DNA from: a bacterium
GTDB taxonomy: Bacteria > SM23-81 > DAOVCL01
Reading direction: 5' to 3'
DNA: 7,121 nt
Assembly (NCBI GenBank): GCA_029932675.1
Contig: JAOZPP010000078.1
Location: forward strand, 1 to 7,121
The notes beneath the pieces were generated by a model. The model saw only the letters and a list, made by a program, of their open reading frames with translations. It did no database searches and was not told the DNA's origin. The position numbers and the translations under genes were made by a program. Shown here in pieces: positions 2,919 through 7,121 of this stretch. The first letter of the stretch is position 1, and each line of letters starts with the position of its first letter.

Positions 2919-2925
2919 GTTTACA
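2919..2925 (+). promoter_or_regulatory. Isolated GTTTACA heptamer, distal possible regulator site
   Basis: This is an exact copy of the heptamer clustered at 6713-6835. It lies about 90 bp upstream of the -35 box of the 3015-3043 promoter. A single heptamer is expected about once by chance in this window, so on its own the evidence is weak. It matters only because of the second copy at 3066. Confidence 0.25.
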
Positions 2926-3014: not shown

Positions 3015-3043
3015 TTGACAGAAAGTGATTTTTGCTTTATATT
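3015..3043 (+). promoter_or_regulatory. Sigma-70-type promoter of the small protein-TPR regulator unit
   Basis: TTGACA (3015-3020), an exact 17-bp spacer and TATATT (3038-3043, five of six matches) form a strong promoter with a start near 3050. It points at the gene starting at 3305, leaving a leader of about 255 nt that holds the strong hairpins at 3131-3220. The activator unit therefore appears to be made by housekeeping polymerase. I found no -24/-12 promoter ahead of it. Confidence 0.7.
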
Positions 3044-3065: not shown

Positions 3066-3072
3066 GTTTACA
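3066..3072 (+). promoter_or_regulatory. GTTTACA heptamer just after the predicted start site
   Basis: This exact GTTTACA copy (context gaGTTTACAga) sits about 16 bp downstream of the predicted start of the 3015-3043 promoter, a position typical of repressor sites. The same heptamer is clustered upstream of the sigma-54 promoter at 6924. If both are bound by the regulator encoded at 3649, that protein would repress its own transcription. This is inference from position. Confidence 0.35.
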
Positions 3073-3648: not shown

Positions 3649-6456
3649 ATGGAAGCCAGGACAAAGTTACGGGAGGAAAGGACGGCTCTGAGGGAGCTAA
3701 AGGAGAAGATTGAAACCCTTCTCCGGGAGAGGGAATATGCAAAGGTTGTGGAGGAGATAGAGGCTTTCTCCCAGGGGTATACTCCGGAAGACAGGGACCT
3801 GGATTGGGCGGAGCTACAGGTAAGGTTGGCCTTTGCCCAGGAGAAGCTGGGCAGGTATGATAGGAAGACCGCGGAGGCAGCATACGAGGCATTGAGACTT
3901 ACTGATAAGCGTAAGGAAATAGGCACAATCGAGAGAATATTGGGTAGAGAATATTTGGCTTTAGGAGAGACAAAAACTGGCCTCAAGTATTTGAGGAATA
4001 GTCTTACAGAATTTGATACGATAGGGGATAAGAAGGGGAAGCTGGAAACACTTAACGCTTTAGGTAGAGCGTGCTTTATCAGCGGTCGCACAAGGGAGGC
4101 CATTGAGCATCTTACCGAGGCCCTTCACCTCTGCCATCAGAATAAAGGGGATAAGACCCAGGAGGCTATGCTCAGGGGGAATCTGGGAGCTTGCCGGATT
4201 TTCACAGGGCAATGGCCATTGGCCTCTGATATGTTAAGGGAGAGCTTGAAGCTTTATGAGGAGATAGGCGATAGCCTGGAGATTGTCAAGGGATTGATTG
4301 CCCTTGCTCGGTTGCTCATTATGCAGAGGAATTTTGATGAAGCCGAGAGGCTATTACAGAGGGCAGAGGCCTTGAGTCAGGTCTACCCTCGGGAGCTGGC
4401 GATGACCTACGAATCGCTGGGTGACCTGGCCAAAGAGAGGAGTCAGTTTCAGAAGGCCAAGAAGTATTATCAGAGGACGCTGGAGATAGGCAGGAGGATA
4501 GCTCCGCAGGGTGACCTGATCAATCAGGTGCAGCGCAGAAGAGCGGAGTTGCTCATCGCCGAGGGGAAAGATCTCGCACAGGCATCGGCATGCATTAAGG
4601 AAGCCCTCAAGGTCTCTCAATCCCTCGGGGACAGGTTTGAGGAAGGCTGTTGTTATCGCACAATGGGGAGACTCGCTCAGGCCAAAGGCAACTCTAAGGC
4701 TGCAGAGGCCAACTTTGAGAAGGCGGTTGAGGTCTTGCGCTCCCTTGAGGACAGGTTTGAGTTGGCGAATACTCTTTTGGCTCAGGGTGAGCTTACCGGG
4801 AGGGATGACCCCTTGCGGGAAGCCCAGAGGCTCTTTGCCCAAATCCAAGGGGCAGAGTTCTACCAGGCTTTGGCCCTGCTCCAGATTGCTAAGGTGGAGC
4901 CTTCCTTCAAGAAAGCGATAGAGACCTTGGAGGAGGTGGAGAAACTACTGAAGGGCAAGGGAGAGGCTGAGAAGCTGGAGGAGGTAGAAGCCCTAAAACT
5001 TGAGCTTAACCAAAGGCTGAAGAGTTTTCATAACCAAAAATATCAGGTCTTGCAAGGACTATCATCAGAGGATTTGGGAAAGGTCTTTGGCAGGGTAATT
5101 GAGGCGGTAGAGGCAGATAGAGGGTTTGTGGCCTATAGAGGGAATGGGAGGAAGGAAATGGAGGTAGGGGCATCTTGTAACCTCAGTGAAAGGGAGGTGA
5201 AGGGGCTTCTCTCCCTGTTAGCAGACAAGGATGGCTTTGAAGTGGGCAGTCCTTTTATCCTCTATGATAGCTCCCTTGATAAGCGGTTCTCCTCCACAGG
5301 GGCCTATAGCATAATGGTAACACCATTTGGGAATGGGGAAAGGATAGATGGTTACCTGTATGTGGATAGACAAAGGGGCAAGGAGCCTTTTTTGGATAAG
5401 GAGTTTGACCTCTTCTATCTCCTCTCCGAGAGGGTAGCCAAGGCGATAGCCGAGCAGAGGCAAAGGGAGTTGGAGAGGACAAGCCAGGGCTTAATGCAGA
5501 GGCTGGCTGTGCAAGGGGTGGTTCCTGAAGAAATAATCACCCAGAATGAGAAGATGCTTGAGGTGTTGAGGGAAGCGGATAAGGTTAAGGACTCCAAAAC
5601 TGCTGTGCTCATTCAGGGCGAATCGGGCACAGGAAAGGAGTTGGTGGCCCAGAAGGTTCACTTCACCAGTCAAAGAAGCTCCAAAAAAATTATCCCCATA
5701 AATTGTGGGGCCATACCGGATGATCTGTTGGAGGCGGAGCTCTTTGGCTGTGAGCGGGGAGCATTTACCGGAGCTATGCCGCGGAAGGGGTTAATTGAGG
5801 AGGCTAATGGGGGGACACTTTTTCTGGATGAGGTGGGGAATCTCAGTCTCAGACATCAGGCCAAACTCCTGCGGGTGCTGGAAGAGGGGAAGGTCCGCCG
5901 GGTGGGAGGGAACGAGGAGAGGCGTGTAGATGTGCGAGTAATAGCGGCTACCAACAAAGATCTGGCAGAGGAGATAAAGAAAGGAAGGTTCCGGGAAGAT
6001 CTCTACTACAGGCTCAACACGGTGGTGTTAGATCTACCTCCTCTGCGGGAGAGGAGGAATGACATCAAGCTTCTGGCTCAGTATTTTCTGGATATCTATT
6101 CCCGTAAGTTCAAAAAGAACCTGCGGGGCATTACGGAGGAGGCTTTAAAACTTTTGGAGCGCTATCCCTGGCCGGGGAATGTGCGGGAGTTGAAGAACGA
6201 GATGGAAAGGGCAGTGCTGCTTGCCGATGAGGGGGACGAGCTCACCCCCGGTCATCTATCTGAAGAGGTGAAGGTAAGCAAAAGGGGGAGGCAAACATCC
6301 GGTAGGCCGAAAGGAAAACGGGAGCTTACCTTAGAGGCATTAGAGCAGAACGGATGGAATAAGACTAGGGCAGCCCAGTCATTAGGCATCACCCGCCAGG
6401 GGTTGATTAAAAGGATAAAGAGGTTTGGACTGGAGAAGATGGAAGCCCAAACTTAG
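3649..6456 (+). CDS. TPR-GAF-AAA+-Fis sigma-54-dependent transcriptional activator
   Basis: This 935-residue cytoplasmic regulator activates sigma-54 polymerase. Residues about 30-460 are tandem tetratricopeptide helices (for example the [17 protein letters not shown] and [15 protein letters not shown] units), a protein- or peptide-binding scaffold. About 470-605 is a GAF-like sensor domain. The AAA+ domain follows with Walker A GESGTGKE (657-664), GAFTGA (704-709, the sigma-54 contact loop), Walker [11 protein letters not shown] (D727-E728) and the arginine-finger segment [10 protein letters not shown] (R782, R788). A Fis-type helix-turn-helix ends the protein (about 900-930: [20 protein letters not shown]). 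All core motifs are intact, so it should be an active ATPase. There is no receiver domain, so control is not by a classical histidine kinase. A GTG at 3640 is also in frame, but it overlaps the GGAGGTG ribosome-binding site (3636-3642). The ATG at 3649 sits at ideal spacing and is preferred. Likely targets are the 6713-6835 sites. Confidence 0.93.
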
Positions 6457-6493
6457 CCTCCTTTTATCCTGCGAATCCAATATAAAAATTCTG

Positions 6494-6529
6494 TGCCGTC
6501 AGGGCTTCTGCCCTGACGGCATCTTTTTT
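6494..6529 (+). terminator. Strong rho-independent terminator after the regulator
   Basis: TGCCGTCAGGGC (6494-6505) and GCCCTGACGGCA (6510-6521) form a perfect 12-bp GC-rich stem with a TTCT loop, followed by TCTTTTTT. It lies 37 bp after the regulator stop and ends the small protein-regulator unit. Confidence 0.93.
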
Positions 6530-6712: not shown

Positions 6713-6835
6713 TGTAAACTTTTCGGAAGTTTACAGAAGTGTAAACGAAAAATTTTCCACTTGTAACCCCTTTAAAAACAGAGGATTGGAAAATGGAGGG
6801 TTTACAGTTCAACTTTGAGTTTACAAAAGTTTACA
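6713..6835 (+). promoter_or_regulatory. Cluster of six GTTTACA/TGTAAAC sites, likely enhancer (UAS) of the sigma-54 promoter
   Basis: Heptamers lie at 6713-6719 (TGTAAAC), 6729-6735 (GTTTACA), 6740-6746 (TGTAAAC), 6800-6806, 6819-6825 and 6829-6835 (all GTTTACA). The first two form a perfect inverted repeat with 9-bp arms, TGTAAACTT and AAGTTTACA, around TTCGG (6713-6735). The second and third form another, with 7-bp arms around GAAG (6729-6746). The last two are 10 bp apart, one helical turn. The cluster lies about 115-240 bp before the predicted start of the 6924 promoter, the usual place for enhancer-binding activators, and dyads suit a Fis-type dimer. The neighbouring regulator is the natural candidate binder, but binding is inferred. 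Confidence 0.65.
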
Positions 6836-6890
6836 GTAAATCATTACCGCAGGGGTTTGGGGCAGATTTTGTAACTACTTGTGACATAAG

Positions 6891-6922
6891 CCACTTAGGA
6901 ATTTTGCCTAAGTGGTTTTTTT
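6891..6922 (+). terminator. Rho-independent terminator shielding the sigma-54 promoter
   Basis: CCACTTAGG (6891-6899) and CCTAAGTGG (6907-6915) form a perfect 9-bp stem around AATTTTG, followed by seven T residues (6916-6922). It ends 1 bp before the -24 box, so any transcript arriving from the enhancer region is stopped and the downstream gene is left under sigma-54 control. Confidence 0.85.
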
Positions 6923-6923
6923 G

Positions 6924-6938
6924 TGGCACGGAATTTGC
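6924..6938 (+). promoter_or_regulatory. Sigma-54 (-24/-12) promoter reading off the right edge
   Basis: TGGCACGGAATTTGC matches the consensus TGGCACG-N4-TTGC at every conserved base. The -24 GG (6925-6926) and -12 GC (6937-6938) are separated by exactly 10 bp. The predicted start is near 6950. Such a promoter is silent without an AAA+ activator, and one is encoded 470 bp upstream. The regulated gene starts beyond 7121 or very near the edge. Confidence 0.88.
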
Positions 6939-6949
6939 GAATATAAATT

Positions 6950-7121
6950 ATAGTGGGTTATCTTGCTACCCGTAGCTTTGGCAGTCAAGGGATAAGCTTG
7001 TCCCCCCCACTCTATCCAGAGTGGAAAAATATAATGCTGGTCTCTTGCCTACATACTTATAAATTCCTTGCTTAAGCGTCACATTGTTGATAATTTTCCA
7101 GGGTCCCAGGTTAAAGGGAAG
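6950..7121 (+). other. Leader of the sigma-54-controlled transcript, no gene start seen
   Basis: From the predicted start to the window end I see no coding region with a convincing start, so the leader is at least about 170 nt. It contains a near-perfect 16-bp palindrome at 6989-7004 (GGGATAAGCTTGTCCC, one mismatch or T-G wobble) and a CCACTC (7007-7012) to GAGTGG (7019-7024) hairpin with loop TATCCA, followed by an A-rich run. Smaller pairings (GGGT 6955-6958 with ACCC 6968-6971) may add to it. It matches no riboswitch class I can name. Confidence 0.4.

Follow-up and report, generated by a model that had tools for sequence, protein, structure and literature searches.

TyrR acts at sigma-70 promoters. 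Its box is TGTAAA-N6-TTTACA, and the box of GcsR, a TyrR-like enhancer-binding protein of Pseudomonas aeruginosa, is TGTAACG-N4-CGTTCCG (PMC4894688). For sigma-54 activators, a gene next to the operator and multiple copies of the upstream activating sequence (UAS) are standard (Clostridiales, PMC6615313; Desulfovibrio, PMC4641369), and many of the Clostridiales motifs have the form TGT-N10-12-ACA (PMC6615313). Peptide quorum sensing of the RRNPP type (Rap, NprR, PlcR) has been described for Bacillota (PMC10075063). The GTTTACA array analysed here lies in a 7,121-bp window (the whole stretch of DNA under analysis) on contig C76 of a 3.03-Mb draft genome. The motif, its geometry and conservation, its restriction to promoters of one kind, the paralogous modules and the sigma-54 gene are all observed, and they are best explained if the array is the UAS of the activator encoded just upstream of it, driving an exported-protein operon and, via a downstream copy of the array, a second operon. 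We put the probability of this reading at about 0.85.

The window contains eight GTTTACA sites, six of them within the array (Table 1). The original prediction had assumed that such a heptamer occurs about once in a window of this size; the computed expectation is 0.58, and eight sites were reached in 0 of 200 shuffles. The maximum for any 7-mer per 123 bp was four in 300 dinucleotide shuffles, against the six observed. Heptamers A and B form a 23-bp dyad, TGTAAACTT-TTCGG-AAGTTTACA, at 6713–6735, and heptamers B and C form an 18-bp dyad that overlaps it, GTTTACA-GAAG-TGTAAAC, at 6729–6746. Heptamers E and F are direct copies. The number and positions of the sites, the two overlapping dyads and the direct pair were all confirmed in the sequence as originally described. 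Both heptamers outside the array sit upstream of the activator's own operon, and the one at 3066–3072 is a possible, speculative autoregulatory site for that operon.

Table 1. Positions of the heptamers, promoters, hairpins and genes in the window.
Feature	Position	Strand	Remarks
Heptamer A	6713..6719	-	TGTAAAC on + strand; left arm of 23-bp dyad; identical in second module
Heptamer B	6729..6735	+	GTTTACA; common to 23-bp and 18-bp dyads; identical in second module
Heptamer C	6740..6746	-	TGTAAAC on + strand; right arm of 18-bp dyad; identical in second module
Heptamer D	6800..6806	+	GTTTACA; identical in second module
Heptamer E	6819..6825	+	GTTTACA; GTTAACA (one mismatch) in second module
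Heptamer F	6829..6835	+	GTTTACA; 10 bp from E; identical in second module
Whole array, proposed UAS	6713..6835	.	89–211 bp upstream of -24 element
Single heptamer	2919..2925	+	Upstream of activator operon; may be chance
Single heptamer	3066..3072	+	About 20 bp downstream of predicted -10 of activator operon
Sigma-54 promoter TGGCACGGAATTTGC	6924..6938	+	-24 GG, -12 GC
Terminator-like hairpin and T run	6888..6918	+	Between array and promoter, just upstream of the latter
Intrinsic-terminator-like hairpin	6493..6522	+	3' of activator gene
Leader of target operon, putative transcript	6939..7121	+	
Small exported protein, 108 aa	3305..3631	+	Ends 8 bp before activator; AWPW motif; proposed input partner
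Proposed cognate activator, 938 aa	3640..6456	+	TPR-GAF-AAA-Fis
Sigma-70-like promoter TTGACA-17-TATATT	3015..3043	+	Likely promoter of small protein–activator operon; consensus match only

The specificity of the motif was assessed by pattern searches. Across the genome, the inverted pair TGTAAAC-N3-33-GTTTACA was found in three places, the window array, C76:10078 and C35:5571, and all three lie 100–230 bp upstream of a -24/-12 promoter. Direct heptamer pairs were confined to the first two of these places. The reversed pattern, used as a control, had zero occurrences in this genome, and no inverted heptamer pair was present in the sister species or in two genomes of the same phylum. A repeat dispersed without relation to promoters, which would have spoken against the original prediction, is rejected, since the heptamer pairs of the 3.03 Mb are confined to the two C76 arrays and C35, all before sigma-54 promoters near activator genes.

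The second C76 array belongs to a module that lies 3.3 kb downstream, outside the window (contig positions 10078–10300). It holds a 23-bp and an 18-bp dyad, three downstream heptamer copies (one mismatched), a hairpin and its own sigma-54 promoter at 10285. When the two modules were compared in an alignment anchored by the heptamers, 41 of 42 heptamer bases were identical versus 49 of the 81 bases between them (60%; Fisher p = 2.7e-6). The hairpin was 56% and the outer flanks 31% identical. The mean column identity of the two modules was 77%. Site-to-site and site-to-promoter distances in the two modules agree within 3 bp. At the level of sequence, the conservation of heptamers over spacers looks like the pattern of binding sites under selection.

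The same comparison bears on two other readings of the array. Its dyads might act as RNA hairpins in a transcript, as attenuator or processing sites, and not as DNA operators; as RNA, the window copy of the 23-bp dyad would fold into a stem of 9 bp closed by a UUCGG loop. However, three of the six heptamers are direct copies that have no arm to pair with, the two modules show no compensatory change and an invariant word, the dyad is not followed by a T run, and an Rfam search of the array and leader gave nothing at the gathering score, which makes RNA hairpins a very improbable explanation. The mean column identity of the two modules makes them look like duplicates, and further hairpin repeats are scattered over the region, as would fit an array that is a dispersed repeat or iteron without regulatory role, carried in a duplicated intergenic segment. 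This reading is disfavoured as extremely improbable, because the heptamers are conserved and the spacers are not, and because heptamer pairs elsewhere in the 3.03 Mb were found only before the C35 promoter.

As predicted for a UAS, the array stands before a sigma-54 promoter with the -24/-12 element TGGCACGGAATTTGC. Hairpins like the one between array and promoter are present in most of the paralogous modules, where they also lie just before the promoter. The genome has a single rpoN gene, with a Sigma54_DBD match at C108. The transcript and the terminator functions were assigned from consensus matches. A 100-base N run directly follows the window, and the first target gene of the window promoter, which encodes a small exported protein ending in HGWGFTC, starts within this run. 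At locus L005 (7222–7939), two genes in tandem for small exported proteins with the ending CHGWGFTC(Y/L) are the predicted first targets of the window promoter, and they are followed by genes for a beta-propeller-like protein and a redoxin-like protein.

Several further features were observed at the paralogous loci. In nine modules (alignment A2; L044, L045, L047–L050, L052, L102 and L103), the -12 element is followed by about 150 nt of conserved leader that looks structured. Long-range pairing is predicted for the leader RNA; none of the loci searched gave an Rfam match at the gathering score, and both sides had changed in 2 of 36 pairs, which is too little for covariation. Small lysine-rich proteins ending in ...KKGVWQRILEVLEEE..DPSDW are recurrent predicted first targets of the paralogous promoters (L043, L044, L046, L047, L049 and L050). 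A dispersed hairpin repeat, GAGGTGGCAGAACCCCGGTTCTGCCACC, lies downstream of most modules (for example L048, 10460–10560), often with several copies per locus. A selenocysteine tRNA gene is located at 5462–5552 of L045.

The proposed cognate activator has four parts: a TPR region (about residues 1–440), a GAF-like domain (441–629), a sigma-54 AAA+ domain with GAFTGA (630–885) and a Fis-type HTH (886–938). The AAA+ domain matches PF00158 (Sigma54_activat, E = 3.6e-68) and the GAFTGA loop is present in the translation, while the C-terminus matches the Fis-type HTH family PF02954 (E = 9.7e-10), with helices at 893–928 of the predicted model. The GAF-like assignment draws on this model, which has high confidence (mean pLDDT 84.6), and on paralog C35. 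In its ATPase portion, the model matches the corresponding domains of NtrC1, ZraR and FleQ. The closest solved TPRs by sequence are those of Pins/LGN. Among genome contigs, the closest named relative by identity is from WOR-3, at 48% over the C-terminal third only. Elsewhere in the window, a candidate toxin–antitoxin pair was observed at 678–1180, with a YafQ-type toxin (PF15738) after a small antitoxin-like gene, and 1250–2563 encodes a MASE9-like membrane domain fused to an HD-type domain, possibly a cyclic-dinucleotide phosphodiesterase.

In the proposed mechanism, dimers of the C-terminal Fis-type HTH would dock on the TGTAAAC half-sites, and the AAA+ domains would then form a ring, loop over about 90–210 bp to the sigma-54 holoenzyme at 6924–6938 and open it. 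We infer these steps, from DNA binding through ring assembly and looping to activation, from how proteins of this family are known to behave. The hairpin between array and promoter would block read-through transcription, and by keeping it out would ensure that the target operon is on only with the activator; terminator function and insulation are thus putative roles of the hairpin. The module 3.3 kb downstream would bring the second operon under the same activator. Each paralogous activator would serve its own set of promoters, with a common AAA core and a different DNA-binding end and operator.

The genome encodes 13 further relatives of the activator, which are 34–76% identical over the matched parts. 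A sigma-54 promoter lies 180–330 bp past the coding region in all relatives with readable downstream DNA (12/12); the relative on C33 runs into the contig end. At L046 (C98), the activator frame is disrupted in the AAA domain and the operator and promoter remain. The window heptamer is absent from the modules of all 13 relatives except C35, where the dyad is TGTAAAC-N4-GTTTACA. Other dyads were found in the inter-gene regions of most paralogs, among them TTGGCAATATTGCCAA (C18), AGCTGAAAATTCAGCT (C98), TTCGCCAAATTTGACGAA (C30), TGTCAATAGAAGTTGACA (C104) and TGTGAACTTCAGTTAACA (C7). No single dyad spacer stands out as preferred across the modules, and a search for over-represented 6-mers within each module gave no information, owing to the high AT content of these regions. 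Three of the activators, C30, C109 and C46, have an ortholog in the sister species, where the dyads are largely retained. The C30 ortholog is the most telling of the three, its dyads being largely kept though the surroundings have diverged.

Identity among these activators differs by domain. For C76 (the window activator) and C111 it is 83% in the TPR, 48% in the AAA and 28% in the HTH. For C7 and C9b it is 66% in the TPR, 97% in the GAF, 98% in the AAA and 26% in the HTH, and for C18 and C109 it is 42% in the TPR, 88% in the AAA and 37% in the HTH. As judged from the proteins' sequences, these comparisons show that the activators are mosaics with a common core and exchanged sensor and DNA-binding ends. 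A recombining core with differing ends would suit a set of switches that do not cross-talk. A single genome offers about a dozen natural activator–operator pairs on a common core, which form a test set for DNA choice by the Fis-type HTH and for the design of activators free of cross-talk.

The original prediction that the array is an enhancer for the adjacent activator is supported, and the cognate link is suggested by adjacency, by the pairing of dyads and activators among the paralogs, and by the HTH of C35. C35, which is larger and carries an N-terminal kinase domain, has a sensor half only about 25% identical to that of the window activator; of all the relatives, it has the HTH most similar to the window's (17/35 residues). 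The HTHs of C46 and C9a are 100% identical and their operators near-identical. Other findings stand against the link. The array combines a 23-bp dyad of 16-bp half-site spacing with an inward-facing 18-bp dyad and direct copies, whereas TyrR, GcsR and C35 have an outward dyad of 18 bp. Dyads are weak in several paralogs (C111, C46 and C108). HTH and operator similarity correlate weakly when the half-sites are chosen by hand (r = 0.27, p = 0.025); the correlation is absent with an unbiased, alignment-free k-mer measure, so an HTH–operator recognition code is not claimed.

A different regulator, either the kinase-fused C35 or a TyrR-like repressor/activator, might instead use the array and act on the same promoter in trans. 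C35 has the same heptamer and the most similar HTH, the TyrR boxes are alike, and cross-binding between C35 and the window activator is plausible. We nevertheless consider this quite unlikely, because C35 has its own array by its own gene, the window array directly follows the window activator, and in most other relatives the gene is next to an operator with other dyads; in addition, the recognition helix of E. coli TyrR, SHTAIANKL, is unlike the window's TRQGLIKRI. Another of the many sigma-54 activators of the genome could also act in trans on the array, and Clostridiales offer examples of activators encoded away from their targets (PMC6615313).

The adjacent activator, as the preferred regulator of the array, is paired with a second gene. 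A small exported protein gene closely precedes 13 of the 14 activators in the genome, and the activator is preceded by such a gene in 3/3 loci checked in the sister species. The small proteins are 102–122 aa long, counting the three sister-species copies, and have an N-terminal membrane/signal segment, from which their export is predicted, an invariant A-x-PW, a low-complexity middle and a C-terminal helix. Their divergence tracks that of the TPR (r = 0.69) and not that of the AAA (r = 0.11), a pattern that adjacency alone could cause. No Pfam family matches the window's small protein, and weak Phr_nterm matches in 3 of 15 small proteins (best E 0.023) may reflect signal-sequence likeness only.

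The pairing extends to another phylum (L119–L147). Members of the activator family were found there in 132/132 genomes sampled, a count that includes partial matches and some members that may be ordinary sigma-54 activators without TPR. A small ORF precedes the activator in 26 of 28 readable loci, with PW in 27 of 29 loci, HPW in 24 and HPWD in 19. The downstream sigma-54 promoter was mostly not seen in these loci, so the pairing with a small protein would be the wider feature and the 3' operator a local one. The small exported protein may be what the adjacent activator senses, and it is a concrete candidate input for this TPR class of sigma-54 activators. A broader reading, which we offer tentatively and hold to be rather doubtful, is that the array is the output of peptide sensing outside Bacillota. 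The exported AWPW/HPWD protein would be processed and sensed by the TPR, and the activator would then fire sigma-54 promoters via its own operator. Around a GAF-AAA core that recombines, about a dozen such pairs would have diversified through two kinds of exchange, of the sensor end together with the small protein and of the DNA-binding end together with the operator. Neither the mosaic family nor the conserved small exported partner was found described in the open papers searched.

Compared with the known systems, the operator is similar in sequence to the TyrR and GcsR boxes, with variant spacing and orientation. The prediction of a new operator motif holds for these two properties and does not hold for the half-site, which is that of TyrR and close to that of GcsR (PMC4894688). 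GcsR works with RpoN and, like the array, has several TGTAAC-type half-sites upstream of a sigma-54 promoter (PMC4894688). It uses 7-N4-7 dyads as in paralog C35, three of them, outward and 18 bp long, whereas the outward dyad of the window has N9 between its heptamers, its N4 dyad faces inward and direct copies are added. The window sensor also differs from that of GcsR in being TPR-GAF. TyrR shares the half-site TGTAAA and, being itself an AAA+ protein of this superfamily, also carries a Fis-type HTH; its box has N6 where the window has N11 in the same frame, and the window's recognition helix, GVSHTAIANKLREYG, differs from that of E. coli TyrR.

The PEP-CTERM system PrsK-PrsR also has a sigma-54 promoter and an upstream motif before exported-protein genes (PMC1569441). 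Unlike PrsR, a response regulator that contains a receiver domain, the window activator showed no such domain in the Pfam scan, and with 323 bits against the TIGR02915 cut-off of 502.6 an identity with PrsR was rejected. As in RRNPP systems, a TPR regulator lies directly by the gene of a small exported (pro)protein in many paralogous pairs (PMC10075063), but the output here is a sigma-54 AAA+ activator. By analogy, this resemblance is a lead and not membership. NtrC/NifA-type systems share with the window an activator by its target, several UAS copies and a -24/-12 promoter; unlike them, this genome has mosaic paralogs built on one core, with a small exported protein before nearly every activator.
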